From an uncultured Erysipelotrichaceae bacterium (GTDB taxonomy: Bacteria; Bacillota_I; Bacilli_A; RFN20; CAG-826), in assembly GCA_947166565.1 (NCBI GenBank), contig CAMVEL010000002.1, forward strand, positions 62,001-126,000: a stretch of 64,000 nt of DNA, read 5' to 3'. Of this stretch, positions 12,437-19,628 are shown one piece after another (position 1 is the first letter of the stretch; each line of letters begins with the position of its first letter). Both the position numbers and the translations under genes were made by a program. Under the pieces are notes generated by a model, which worked only from the letters and a program-made list of their open reading frames with translations, did no database searches and was not told where the DNA came from.

Positions 12437-13234
12437 ATGGATTTCTTCACATTGACCCGCAAAAGGCAGAGGAGGACGCATTTCAATCGCTCTTCTGAAA
12501 TGCAATTTTTCCTCGATAACAACGTGCTTTTACGTTCAAACCCCATGTTTATGACCTATGCGAATGCGCAACGTTCTTTCGATATCGTCAGGGCCAACAT
12601 CATAATTCGTGGACTCATTAACAAAAAGACCATCGAAAAAATCTATTTTTCCTTGATGGAAGGCCAACTTCTTGAAACAATCAACAAAGAGCAGAAGGAA
12701 GAAGTATCCAAAAAGGTCCAAGCCGAGATAAGCGATCTCCCATATGCCTTTGACCAAGAAAGCAAAATCTATATCCCTTTCTTTTCAAGAAGTATCAATA
12801 GAATCTACGAGAAGGACTTCTGGAAATTGGAGGAAATGCCCTATAAATCGTTATTAAAGGACTTCGATTCAATCATTTCCGATCCTTTCGACCTCTATGG
12901 CGATGACCTATATAACTCCATTTTCACGAAGCTTGTCAGGTTGAAGAAAGCCAGAGAGGGCTCGGCATTCTATGATTACGATGCCTTGGCAATTTATTTC
13001 GTCAATAAAGGCGGGCGTTTGGAAGAAGCGATATATCTTTTCGACAAGGATTTAAGGAAGCCTTCGCCCAACCATATGATCGGAAAGCTCATTCCGGTGG
13101 TCAATGCATACTATTCCGGCAACAAAGACGCCTTCTTTGCTGAATTGGTAAAAAATAGGTTAATTTCTAGTAGATTATTAGCAAAGCATTTAGATTCAAT
13201 TCGCTCGAATAAATCGGGAGAAAACGCGGAGTAG
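12437..13234 (+). CDS. Protein of unknown function between rsmE and mtaB
   Basis: I do not recognise this 265-residue protein. It has no signal peptide or membrane helix, and no Cys pair or nucleotide motif. It is mostly charged and predicted helical, with many aromatic residues (for example DFWKLEEMPYKSLLKDF) and a basic N-terminus (TRKRQRRTHFNR). The ATG at 12437 is supported by a GGGGGAAG ribosome-binding site seven bases upstream. It lies two bases after rsmE and six before mtaB, so it is in the same operon, in a place where Bacillus has no gene. A link to RNA modification is only positional. Confidence 0.75.
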   Translation: MDFFTLTRKRQRRTHFNRSSEMQFFLDNNVLLRSNPMFMTYANAQRSFDIVRANIIIRGLINKKTIEKIYFSLMEGQLLETINKEQKEEVSKKVQAEISDLPYAFDQESKIYIPFFSRSINRIYEKDFWKLEEMPYKSLLKDFDSIISDPFDLYGDDLYNSIFTKLVRLKKAREGSAFYDYDALAIYFVNKGGRLEEAIYLFDKDLRKPSPNHMIGKLIPVVNAYYSGNKDAFFAELVKNRLISSRLLAKHLDSIRSNKSGENAE

Positions 13235-15590: not shown

Positions 15591-15767
15591 ATGGCAGTTA
15601 AGACAACTCTCCGCGAAGGGGAAAACGTCGACGAACTCCTCCGTCGTTTCAAACGCGGCGTGAACAAGTCTGGCATCCTTCTTGAAGCTCGCAAGCGCGA
15701 AGCCTATCTCAAACCAGGCCTAAAGAGGAAAATGAAATCCAAAATGGCCAGGCGCAAGAAGTTCTAA
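15591..15767 (+). CDS. rpsU: 30S ribosomal protein S21
   Basis: S21 is a 30S protein needed for initiation. This 58-residue gene reads [20 protein letters not shown] and then [18 protein letters not shown], followed by a strongly basic C-terminus. It follows mtaB as in Bacillus, here with rpmF and deoC in between. It is a single-gene unit with promoter (15529) and terminator (15784). Confidence 0.94.
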
Positions 15768-15783
15768 GCCCTTAGCTAACTAG

Positions 15784-15810
15784 ACCCGTCCAAGCGACGG
15801 GTTTTTTCTT
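15784..15810 (+). terminator. Terminator after rpsU
   Basis: ACCCGTC (15784-15790) and GACGGGT (15796-15802) form a perfect 7-bp stem with a 5-base loop, followed by a T run and CTT. Confidence 0.85.
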
Positions 15811-15915: not shown

Positions 15916-17112
15916 ATGAAGACAAAAATCGTTTACCAATCACAGGAGAAGGGCTGCGGCTATGCCGCGGTGAAGATGGCCCTGATCCATATGTCCAAAA
16001 GGAAGGACTTCGCTTATGCGGAGGAACCGGAGATCGAGGGAATGGCCCCTTCCTTATTGGATATAAAGGAATATGCCCTTAACCACGGCCTTTCCCTCGA
16101 GGTCTTTAGGACAAAAGACCCATCCGAACTATTCGAGAACAAGGAATATCCCCTTTTGCTGATCCTAAGCGAAAGCAAATCGACCCACATGGTCTATTTG
16201 GAGAGGAAAAGGCGGAAGGACTATGTTGTTTATGACCCCAAGAGAGGAAAGCGTTATATCCCCCACGAGGACCTCCACCGCGTGTTTTCCGGAACCTTCG
16301 TTTCCCTCCTTTCATATAGGGAACTTGGGCAATCGTTCCAAAAGAAGAAGGACAAAACCAGGAGATGGAACCTCCTCGATGCCTTTTTCTCCTTCTTGCC
16401 CCTGCCCTTTCTCCTTTTGGGGATGTCGACCCTTGAAGGATACGTCTTGGCGATTCCGATAACCTTCTTCCTTCTTTCGTTAACGTCGGTTTTCATCGGG
16501 AGATTCATCAAGATCGCCTCCTTCAAGGCGTTCGACCGTAATTACGGGCGTTTCCTCCTCCATAACGACCCCCTCAAAAGGAGGAGCCTCTACACGCATT
16601 ATTGCCAATACAAAGCCTACGCCTTCACTAGCCTTGGCCAATTCGCGGCGACCCTAGCGGAGACGATTGGCCTCGTGACGATTCTAGCGATCCGCAACCT
16701 CTTCTTCGGGACCCTTCTTTGCCTAGCGATCCTCATGAGCGTCCTCCTTGTGATCCTCGATACCCCAAGGGAAAAGAAAACCTTAGGAATGATCGAGGAA
16801 AAGGAGGATACCTTCCTCAACGTCCGCCTCTCGGAAGAAGATAGGAAGACGGCTTTGCTTGGGGTCTTCGCCTCCTCGACTTCCTACGCCTCGTTTTTGC
16901 TTTCTAGGGAGACCTTCACGTTCGTTATCTCCGTCGCTTTCTCCTCCATCGCGATGGCGATAACGGGCCTAGCCTCACTCGAGACCTTCATCTTCTATTG
17001 CCTTTCCATCCATATCGTGGTGAGTTTGACCATCGAGACCTTCAAATCCTATGAAGGGGTGGAGAAGAAAAGGAAGGAGGAGCCCTTTTTCCTCCGTTAT
17101 TTCGTGGAGTGA
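15916..17112 (+). CDS. C39 peptidase domain joined to six membrane helices, no ATPase domain
   Basis: Residues about 1-140 form a C39 (double-glycine) peptidase of the type found in bacteriocin ABC exporters. The set is complete: Gln8 and Cys14 in QSQEKGCGYAAVKM, His in STHMVYLE and Asp in VVYDPKRG. Residues about 155-385 hold six hydrophobic helices in the 2+2+2 layout of an exporter membrane domain. The protein then stops at 398 residues: there is no Walker A, signature motif or Walker B, and no ATPase gene beside it. Such enzymes cut leader peptides after Gly-Gly; this one may process or escort a peptide using a separate ATPase, or without one. No ribosome-binding site precedes the ATG, so the mRNA may be leaderless. 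It stands between rpsU and ybeY with no terminator visible after it. Confidence 0.75.
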   Translation: MKTKIVYQSQEKGCGYAAVKMALIHMSKRKDFAYAEEPEIEGMAPSLLDIKEYALNHGLSLEVFRTKDPSELFENKEYPLLLILSESKSTHMVYLERKRRKDYVVYDPKRGKRYIPHEDLHRVFSGTFVSLLSYRELGQSFQKKKDKTRRWNLLDAFFSFLPLPFLLLGMSTLEGYVLAIPITFFLLSLTSVFIGRFIKIASFKAFDRNYGRFLLHNDPLKRRSLYTHYCQYKAYAFTSLGQFAATLAETIGLVTILAIRNLFFGTLLCLAILMSVLLVILDTPREKKTLGMIEEKEDTFLNVRLSEEDRKTALLGVFASSTSYASFLLSRETFTFVISVAFSSIAMAITGLASLETFIFYCLSIHIVVSLTIETFKSYEGVEKKRKEEPFFLRYFVE

Positions 17113-17621: not shown

Positions 17622-18029
17622 ATGGACAAGAACCTTCTGATCGAAGAAGCCAAGAAAGCGAGGGAGAAATCCTATTCCCCCTATAGCAAATTCAAGGTCG
17701 GCGCGGCCGCTTTGATGCGCGATGGAAGGATATTCCACGGCGCGAACATCGAGAATTCCTCCTACCCCCTTTGCATGTGCGCCGAAAGGAACGCGATCTA
17801 TAACGCGATGAATAACGGTTACAAGAAAGAGGATTTCCTTGCTTTGGCCCTTATCGCCGATACCGAAGGGCCGGTGACACCCTGTGGGGCCTGCCGTCAG
17901 GTCATCAGCGAACTCATGCCTAAGGGCACCCCGATATTGATGGCCTCCCTCCGCGGCGATCTCCAGGAGACGACCCCCGAGGAGCTTTTGCCTTTCGCTT
18001 TCGACGAAAAGGCCCTGAAAAACCTATGA
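17622..18029 (+). CDS. cdd: Cytidine deaminase
   Basis: Cdd deaminates cytidine and deoxycytidine to uridine forms. The zinc site is C53, C88 and C91 (CAERN, PCGAC) with catalytic Glu55. The 135-residue length fits the small tetrameric class. It starts two bases after ybeY and ends in a four-base ATGA overlap with era, so translation is coupled. Confidence 0.96.
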   Translation: MDKNLLIEEAKKAREKSYSPYSKFKVGAAALMRDGRIFHGANIENSSYPLCMCAERNAIYNAMNNGYKKEDFLALALIADTEGPVTPCGACRQVISELMPKGTPILMASLRGDLQETTPEELLPFAFDEKALKNL

Positions 18030-18904
18030 GAAACGGATTCATTGCCATTTTGGGAAAACCGAATGTCGGGAAAAGCACCCTTTTGAACGCGCTTTTATCG
18101 AAGAAGGTCTCGATTGTCACCCCTAGAGCCCAAACCACGCGCGATTCTATCATGGGCATCCTCACCGAAAAGGATTATCAGATGGTCTTCGTCGATACCC
18201 CGGGCATCTTCTTCGGCAAGCAACGCCTCGACAAGATCATGCGTAAATCCGCCTTCGAATCCGCTAGGGACGTCAATTTGATCCTCTACCTAATCGATGC
18301 CTCGACCCGCAATATCGAAGACGACATCAGGATTTTCAATTCCATACATTCGGAATCGCCCCGCGTTTTCGTCATCAACAAAATCGACTTGATCAGGCCC
18401 GAAAAGGCGATGAAGCTCAAGGAAAAACTAAGGGAATCCCACCCGGATACCCCGATAATCGAGGCTTCCTTCATCGAGAATTTCGGTATCAAGGAAATAA
18501 AGGAAGCGGCCTTGCCCTATTTGGAGGAAGGACCTTTCTTCTTCCCCGAGGATTCCTTGACCGATAAGGACAAAGCCTATCAGGCCAAGGAAGCGATACG
18601 CGAGGTCATGCTCAAGTACCTCCTTGACGAAATCCCCCATCAATCCGCGGTTTTCATTGAATCCATCAAGGAAAAAGAAGGGGAAATCGCCCTTAACGCG
18701 ACGATTGTCACCGAGCGCGACGCCCATAAGGGCATCGTGATAGGAAAAGGCGGGGAGATGATCAAGAAGATCCGCCTTGGGGCGAGCAAGGAACTCGCGA
18801 GGATGTGGCATTTAAGCGTGGAGATGAACCTCAAGGTCATCGTCGACCCCTCATGGAGGGATAATCCCGGGAAGCTCTCCCGTTATGGGTATGGGGAATC
18901 TTGA
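18026..18904 (+). CDS. era: GTPase Era
   Basis: Era couples 16S rRNA maturation to growth. It has a GTPase domain (G1 GKPNVGKST near 9-17, G3 DTPGI, G4 NKID) and a C-terminal KH domain with VIGKGGEMIKKI that binds the 3' end of 16S rRNA. The 292-residue length is normal. It overlaps cdd by four bases and recO by about 20 bases or less, depending on the recO start. Confidence 0.97.
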   Translation: MRNGFIAILGKPNVGKSTLLNALLSKKVSIVTPRAQTTRDSIMGILTEKDYQMVFVDTPGIFFGKQRLDKIMRKSAFESARDVNLILYLIDASTRNIEDDIRIFNSIHSESPRVFVINKIDLIRPEKAMKLKEKLRESHPDTPIIEASFIENFGIKEIKEAALPYLEEGPFFFPEDSLTDKDKAYQAKEAIREVMLKYLLDEIPHQSAVFIESIKEKEGEIALNATIVTERDAHKGIVIGKGGEMIKKIRLGASKELARMWHLSVEMNLKVIVDPSWRDNPGKLSRYGYGES

Positions 18905-19628
18905 TACTTTCAGAATCAAAGGCATCGTCTTGAGGAGGACCGCGGTCAAAGACGCGGATGCGATGGTCAGTTGCATCGGCGAGGACGGCTGTTTTTCCTT
19001 TTACGGAAGAGGGGTCAAGAAGTTAACGAGCAAAAACGGCGCCGCCCTTTCCGAGCTTTCCTATTCGGATTTCCTCCTTATCAAAAGCAAAAACGGGGTC
19101 TACGCCCTTAAGGAAGCCGCGCCCATCGAATCCTATATAAAAGAAGGGGATTTGTCCGCGATCGCCGTCGAGAACTTCCTATGCGAGCTAATAAGCCATA
19201 TTTTCAACGAAGAGGAAACGGAGGGTAAATTCCTCTATCCATATCTAAAAAAGGCTCTAGAGGCCATTAAACAGGGTTTTGAGCCCTTTACCGCGGGCAT
19301 CATCTGCTTCGCGAAGGCCTTGATAGAACTAGGATTAGGCTTGGAAGTCGATTCCTGCGTTAGGTGCAAGGGGAAGAAAGGAATCGTCGGCCTATCGCTT
19401 CTTGACGGGGGCTTTGTCTGCGCGGATTGTTTGTTGGAAGAAGATGTCAAACTCGACCCCTATCTCCTGAAGATCATCCGTTATGTCTTCCGTTGCGGAT
19501 TAGACGATCTATCCCGCGTCCCCTTCAAGAAGGAGGACCTCCTCCCCCTTTACGATTTGCTGGCGACCCATCTTGAAAACGCGACCAATTTCAAGCCTCG
19601 CAGTCTGGAACTATTGAGACAACTTTAA
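18885..19628 (+). CDS. recO: DNA repair protein RecO
   Basis: RecO loads RecA at gaps with RecF/RecR and anneals single strands. The 247-residue protein has an N-terminal OB fold (FRIKGIVLRRTAVKDADAMV) and a zinc site with CVRC and CADC in the middle. ATG at 18885 is taken; ATG at 18891 is also possible since neither has a clear ribosome-binding site and both overlap the end of era. Order era-recO-glyS is typical of Bacilli. Confidence 0.9.
   Translation: MGMGNLDTFRIKGIVLRRTAVKDADAMVSCIGEDGCFSFYGRGVKKLTSKNGAALSELSYSDFLLIKSKNGVYALKEAAPIESYIKEGDLSAIAVENFLCELISHIFNEEETEGKFLYPYLKKALEAIKQGFEPFTAGIICFAKALIELGLGLEVDSCVRCKGKKGIVGLSLLDGGFVCADCLLEEDVKLDPYLLKIIRYVFRCGLDDLSRVPFKKEDLLPLYDLLATHLENATNFKPRSLELLRQL

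Follow-up and report, generated by a model that had tools for sequence, protein, structure and literature searches.

The window, which is the whole stretch of 64,000 nucleotides of bacterial DNA analysed here, encodes on its forward strand a protein of 398 aa (P0001) that joins a C39 peptidase to a membrane domain of exporter type and has no ATPase domain. Its gene, the C39-TMD gene, lies in the following surroundings:

15591..15767, + strand: 58-aa S21-like open reading frame, rpsU candidate and upstream neighbour (DNA read by eye)
15782..15804, + strand: stem resembling an intrinsic terminator, situated between rpsU and the C39-TMD gene
15916..17112, + strand: C39-TMD gene (C39 peptidase and exporter-type membrane domain, no ATPase domain), ATG start, 398 aa
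17155..17619, + strand: ybeY, downstream neighbour at the conserved locus
17622..18029, + strand: cdd, conserved neighbour
18026..18904, + strand: era, conserved neighbour
18885..19628, + strand: recO, conserved neighbour

We take the upstream frame to encode ribosomal protein S21 (rpsU). The start of ybeY is 42 bp 3' of the C39-TMD gene, with cdd, era and recO behind it, and no ATPase gene adjoins the C39-TMD gene in the window, as the first-pass annotation of this DNA had stated. A promoter scan was uninformative (2 found, 2.0 expected). Between rsmE and mtaB, at 12437-13234, the window also encodes a 265-aa protein of unknown function, which has the same place in many of the named contigs.

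The N-terminal third of the protein is a C39 peptidase domain, in which the four catalytic residues could be located:

15916..16317, + strand: C39 peptidase domain, residues 1-134 (Pfam residues 3-129; VIA superposition on peptidase domains of ComA and LahT type)
15937..15939, + strand: codon of catalytic Gln8, invariant in the 41 rows of the family alignment A5
15955..15957, + strand: codon of catalytic Cys14, invariant in A5
16186..16188, + strand: codon of catalytic His91, invariant in A5
16234..16236, + strand: codon of catalytic Asp107, invariant in A5

Pfam matches Peptidase_C39 at residues 3-129 with an E value of 3.8e-13 and 49.9 bits (cut-off 22), VIA superposes residues 1-134 on the ComA and LahT-type peptidase domains with Z about 17, and among solved structures the closest in sequence is 6mpz, an AMS/PCAT peptidase domain (E 9e-4). 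Alignment A5 comprises P0001 and 40 of the 42 named loci, L031 having been dropped as a near copy of P0001 and L057 as one of L054; Lys20 and Pro108 are invariant in it together with the catalytic Gln, Cys, His and Asp, whose presence had been claimed from the window alone. The invariance of Cys14 sets the family apart from the C39-like (CLD) exporters such as HlyB, in which the catalytic Cys is lost, and shows that it is not the family devoid of the Cys that had been named earlier as a possible refutation. In a motif table of 102 rows the tetrad is kept in 52 of the 54 rows of the order without a nucleotide-binding domain (NBD), the exceptions being L224 and L228 with Phe and Glu at the Asp column, so that the aligned Asp is absent from 2 of the 5 rows of family f5. 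Outside the order the tetrad occurs in every row with a complete N-terminus; three f11 rows and one f17 row have no N-terminal residues in the reading used.

The remainder of the protein was analysed by means of an AlphaFold2 model built from A5 (pLDDT 93.8, pTM 0.86), from which the following features are predicted or placed:

16360..17103, + strand: six-helix exporter membrane domain, residues 149-396 (AlphaFold2 model)
16558..16569, + strand: tight turn replacing intracellular loop 1 with its coupling helix, residues 215-218, TM2-TM3 (model)
16819..16833, + strand: tight turn replacing intracellular loop 2 with its coupling helix, residues 302-306, TM4-TM5 (model)
16534..16536, + strand: codon of Asp207, a membrane-domain charge, in 98% of A5 rows
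16612..16614, + strand: codon of Lys233, membrane domain, in 95% of A5 rows
16804..16806, + strand: codon of Glu297, membrane domain, in 98% of A5 rows

Six long helices are modelled (residues 149-171 with a break at 161, 179-214, 219-260, 262-301, 307-350 and 355-396), which bears out the exporter layout read earlier from the sequence. Foldseek gave PCAT1 (6v9z) as the best match with E 4.2e-14, the top of the list being 13 PCAT1 chains, and VIA-align placed model residues 1-398 on residues 8-465 of PCAT1 chain 8vp5_B (385 aligned, Z 22.2, rmsd 5.7). Residues 145-398 were matched to TAP, EfrCD, TmrAB and TM287 with Z about 13-15 and rmsd 3.5-3.9; since a common arrangement alone can bring helical bundles to Z about 13, these membrane-only matches are supportive, and it is the PCAT1 rows that carry weight. 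The C-terminus of the model coincides with the start of the PCAT1 ATPase, and Pfam finds no ABC_tran in the protein, in agreement with the earlier statement that it ends before any nucleotide-binding domain. Pfam ABC_membrane is unmatched as well, so that a type IV exporter domain is recognised in the predicted structure and not by this profile. Comparison of the membrane domain with exporter domains by hhalign was weak (E 0.0057, prob 6%), and the link therefore rests on the model, on locus L225 of family f8 and on full-length hits in some mollicutes.

The two intracellular loops that would dock an ATPase are reduced to four and five residues without a separate helix in the model, and the alignment gaps against full-length relatives fall at both turns, amounting to 12-13 residues at loop 1 and about 17 at loop 2. 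The median distance from residue 134 to the end is 264 residues in f1, 259 in f3, 277 in f5 and 300 in f8, while the full-length families have 328-338 residues from the equivalent point to 38 residues before Walker A, and f11, which holds forms with a dead ATPase, has 295. The membrane domain is less conserved than the C39 domain (mean majority fraction 0.33 vs 0.45); within this otherwise variable domain Asp207, Lys233 and Glu297 stand out as a candidate functional set. In many close rows the C-terminal tail (17065-17112 in the window) has a motif near EE-x-(Y/F)-F, which is absent from distant rows.

A search with the window protein gave matches in 48 of 96 relative genomes, none of them with an internal stop and 46 of them in frames of 390-462 aa (the remaining two frames have 185 and 276 aa). 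Of 147 genomes representing this order of gut bacteria, 130 matched the A5 profile, as did 111 of the 121 good assemblies among them; the best match per genome lies in a frame below 500 aa, mostly 380-450, with some fragments at contig ends. Homologues that also stop at the membrane domain thus form an order-wide family, and this family, with its stop-free frames in 48 rows, rules out the frameshift or artefact that the first-pass annotation had named as a possible refutation. Seven of nine pairs compared have dN/dS of 0.02-0.16, the other two being saturated, and the ratio is equally low in the C39 and membrane parts, indicating that the peptidase and the six-helix domain are both kept under purifying selection. 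Loss of the ATPase is itself a kind of decay, and the sampled genomes of families f2 and f4 are mostly without a match; against this, the gene is intact in most of the order, its catalytic residues and locus are kept and dN/dS is well below 1, which makes a functionless relic or assembly artefact scarcely credible.

Second matches in frames of 680-748 aa, corresponding to full-length exporters, were found in 12 of the 147 genomes, including the window's own, where a distinct full-length C39-ABC gene, of 726 aa, lies on contig 39 (L073, L084, L089). The NBD-less protein is therefore no stand-in for a missing peptidase-containing exporter. On contig 39 the 726-aa gene adjoins a second ABC frame of 727 aa, and a frame of 265 aa on contig 37 of the same genome (L075) encodes another C39-like protein, the third, with 29.5 bits.

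Unlike PCAT/AMS exporters, the gene has a fixed position among core genes. The next named gene after it is ybeY in 39 of the 42 named contigs, four of these with one extra gene in between, and cdd in the other three. Outside the order, 47 of the 76 genomes with a hit were read as regions round the match (L209-L217, L229-L265, L268), and other families of the class have at this locus a C39 protein that is about 600-700 aa long. It is directly before ybeY in 10 of 10 f20 loci (L252 had no profile hit and was identified from its C39 and ATPase motifs; L255 is broken into two open reading frames). The C39 protein precedes ybeY in 15 of 15 f11 loci, either immediately or with one or two frames, small or split, intervening, and in 7 of 7 f22 loci and the one f29 locus, most of which have a small one-TM gene in between. 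In f17 it is within a few genes of ybeY in 3 of 10 loci, some of the others being at contig ends, and the single loci of f18, f28, f21 and f14 have it at another place or at a contig end. G347, a hit outside the order whose region is not among the 47, has a 437-aa frame. The small protein measures about 117-149 aa, has by eye a single N-terminal TM helix and comes after the full-length exporter in L216_8, L209_5, L212_11, L235-L239, L242-L245 and L248 (most of f22, f29, some f11 and some f17); it was not seen in the window's order, and is perhaps an accessory protein of the full-length exporter. In one f8 genome a 585-aa gene, aminopeptidase P-like by eye, lies between the C39 gene and ybeY (L225:5351-7108).

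The full-length proteins at this locus include a member of NF045998, the Mbov_0121 family of peptidase domain-containing ABC transporters of mollicutes. This is also the best NCBIfam model for the window protein, which scores 54 bits, far below the cut-off of 500, and is without the last third, the ATPase. L216 (f22) is a true member with 745 bits, lying one gene upstream of ybeY-cdd-era-recO, and L225, from the window's own order, matches positions 2-440 of 673 over nearly its whole length. Pfam finds C39, ABC_membrane and ABC_tran in L216, L217 and L210, C39 and ABC_membrane in L225, and C39 only in L214 and P0001. From position together with sequence, the best explanation, held at the same odds as our overall reading below, is that the C39-TMD gene is an orthologue of the Mbov_0121-type C39-membrane-ATPase exporter.

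In the motif table, ATPase motifs are present in f17, f20, f22, f29, f14, f18, f21 and f28 and in five f11 rows, and in the window's order they are found in none of the 53 rows reaching the end nor in one fragment; two f11 rows and one f20 row are fragments. Walker A is gone in eight f11 rows (L214, L215, L229-L234), which form a dead-ATPase clade of proteins of 599-678 aa. These are like the window protein in having the same locus, no working ATPase and an intact C39 domain (seen in the 7 rows whose N-terminus is complete, the reading of L234 beginning late), but differ from it by retaining a degenerate ATPase remnant. In a quick tree of 72 of the 102 rows, from which 5 fragments and 25 f1 rows were omitted, f1, f3, f5 and f8 form one NBD-less clade, whose SH-aLRT support of 92 is to be read with the long branches of such a tree in mind. 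This clade is nested in a starred clade (97) with f22, f11 and f29, and f11 is one clade (97). The minimum number of changes between ATPase, dead and none is two, and on this phylogeny the dead ATPase of the mollicute clade and the absent ATPase of the order are independent losses, one change each. Family f8 branches first in the order clade and has the longest membrane domain of the order; our reading is that the ATPase would have been lost first and the docking loops shortened afterwards.

The first-pass annotation had offered two interpretations, a split exporter or a peptidase-channel of a new type, and had proposed a search for an orphan ABC ATPase. In the former, an ATPase would act in trans, supplied either by such an orphan or by a degenerate ATPase-like multi-TM protein of the window's genus. 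ATPases are available, as the window's genome has 53 ABC_tran matches, too many to single out one partner. The degenerate family is located as follows:

L042:11255-12376, L044:1393-2307, L045:11241-12383, L106-L116 and L136-L143: degenerate ATPase-like family

It is a fast-evolving family of 300-410 aa, with an N-terminal part resembling ABC ATPases and several TM helices in the C-terminal part. Of 31 genomes of the genus 19 carry it, 4 directly downstream of the C39-TMD gene (G005, G008, G012, G013) and 15 elsewhere. Its N-terminal part matched a profile of 18 real ATPases by hhalign over 131 columns (E 4.8e-5, prob 68%), against E 0.07-0.58 for 18 decoy families of at most 20 rows each and 0.19 for the reversed control. 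A 42-column match between its TM part and the membrane domain of the window family (E 4.4e-4) was taken as a shared TM-helix signal, and a three-row model was too poor to define its fold (pLDDT 57.6), fold searches returning generic helical matches. The family was not found in the window's genome or outside the genus, nor convincingly in G021 and G025. Being genus-restricted, absent from the genome in question and without Walker A, it was discarded as the missing motor and survives as a low-odds rival. The predicted reduction of both docking loops to turns, together with the lack of an adjacent partner ATPase, disfavours the split exporter in either form, and we consider it quite improbable.

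We propose instead, with a probability of about two in three, that the C39-TMD protein would be an ATP-independent, membrane-embedded processing endopeptidase derived from an exporter. This retains the peptidase of a new type from the second earlier interpretation; its channel part stands as a candidate, discussed below. The protein shares with the PCAT/AMS exporters (PCAT1, ComA and LahT type) the C39 Gln-Cys-His-Asp tetrad and the predicted six-helix domain in the same order, and differs from them by having no Walker A, signature or Walker B, by its shortened coupling-helix loops and by being about 60 residues shorter over the matched range. It is also like FapD and the stand-alone C39 peptidases in having a C39 domain without an ATPase; FapD, which gave a weak match of 15.5 bits, is much shorter (model of 224 positions) and is not known to have an exporter domain. 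No description of an NBD-less C39 exporter was found in the literature searched, subscription journals being mostly outside it.

The PCAT1 study (PMC6959990) provides the frame for a mechanism. Without ATP, PCAT1 is inward-facing and its peptidase docks on the membrane core and cuts, whereas with ATP the ATPase dimer closes, the pathway turns outward and the peptidase is freed and has little activity; cleavage in PCAT exporters is there described as strictly coupled to ATP-driven export (PMC6959990). HetC is presented as a PCAT whose ATPase is required (PMC10986499); leader proteases are treated in a review (PMC10885120). In a protein without an ATPase nothing would drive the outward swing or remove the peptidase, and it would stay in the cutting state. 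Thus, having lost the ATPase domain and both docking loops in this order, with the peptidase and six-helix domain remaining, the protein may be held inward-facing and protease-competent, as PCAT1 is when it cuts, with no driven export. We infer its protease activity, the direction and the type of substrate from fold and family, and a dimeric state from exporter architecture. At the cytosolic mouth of the membrane domain, the C39 domain would receive the leader of the substrate, and Cys14, His91 and Asp107, with Gln8 at the oxyanion site, would cleave after a Gly-Gly-like site. The cleaved cargo may then exit into the membrane, via another translocase or passively. A Gly-Gly peptide was not seen beside the C39-TMD gene, and the leader model TIGR01847, whose 15 positions make for a weak test, matched in 12 of 61 relatives without tracking the gene.

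In the peptidase-channel, the dimeric membrane domain would conduct the cut cargo without ATP, by means of the cargo's own folding, the membrane potential or binding on the outside. Retention of what the model predicts to be a complete six-helix exporter fold speaks for this, as does a dN/dS in the membrane part as low as that of the peptidase, and the PCAT1 pathway is described as holding cargo without specific contacts (PMC6959990). Nevertheless, an exporter fold without ATP-driven switching should stay shut to the outside, and the membrane domain is the less conserved of the two, so that we regard conduction as unlikely, if less so than a split exporter.

The processing endopeptidase has a possible counterpart in the minimal cell. 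The JCVI-syn3A paper describes 0401 as a C39-domain protein annotated after the sublancin transporter, states that no double-glycine peptide for it was found in syn3A, as in other mycoplasmas, tentatively assigns it to lipoyl-peptide import and transamidation, and gives 0405 as glycyl-tRNA synthetase (PMC6609329). The gene order at the dead-ATPase loci is C39-ybeY-era-recO-glyS, which would equal 0401-0405; from gene numbers and order, 0401 probably occupies this locus as a protein of the dead-ATPase type. Elsewhere in mollicutes, Mbov_0121 appears in a list of possible virulence factors (PMC5426083) and a peptidase-C39-2 protein is named in passing in a paper on M. hominis (PMC11096450). The assignment of 0401 suggests a further alternative for the window family, in which the C39 domain would perform acyl or peptide transfer in place of leader cleavage. 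It was put forward because syn3A has no double-glycine peptide and its lipoyl transferases are deleted, and is worded as tentative in its source (PMC6609329). The window family shows nothing unusual in its tetrad or in its match to leader-cutting domains, and import by an exporter fold devoid of an ATPase would be unexpected; we therefore find transfer very improbable.

In the processing-endopeptidase reading, most of the order has lost both the motor and its docking loops and the mollicute clade has a dead motor, while the protease has been kept beside ybeY, which suggests that the conserved job is cutting rather than pumping. A tentative extension, possible and yet short of even odds, is that a peptide exporter with a housekeeping role was turned, in each of two small-genome lineages, into a membrane peptidase that needs no ATP, whose cargo would be guided through or into the membrane, and that this is the same system as 0401, with a conserved, so far unrecognised peptide as its substrate. 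For work on C39 exporters these proteins would be naturally occurring uncoupled variants, and they give a new lead on JCVI-syn3A 0401, a minimal-cell gene whose role has so far only been guessed. The substrate also becomes searchable, since it would be expected to be common to the organisms with this locus, beyond those with bacteriocin-like peptides.
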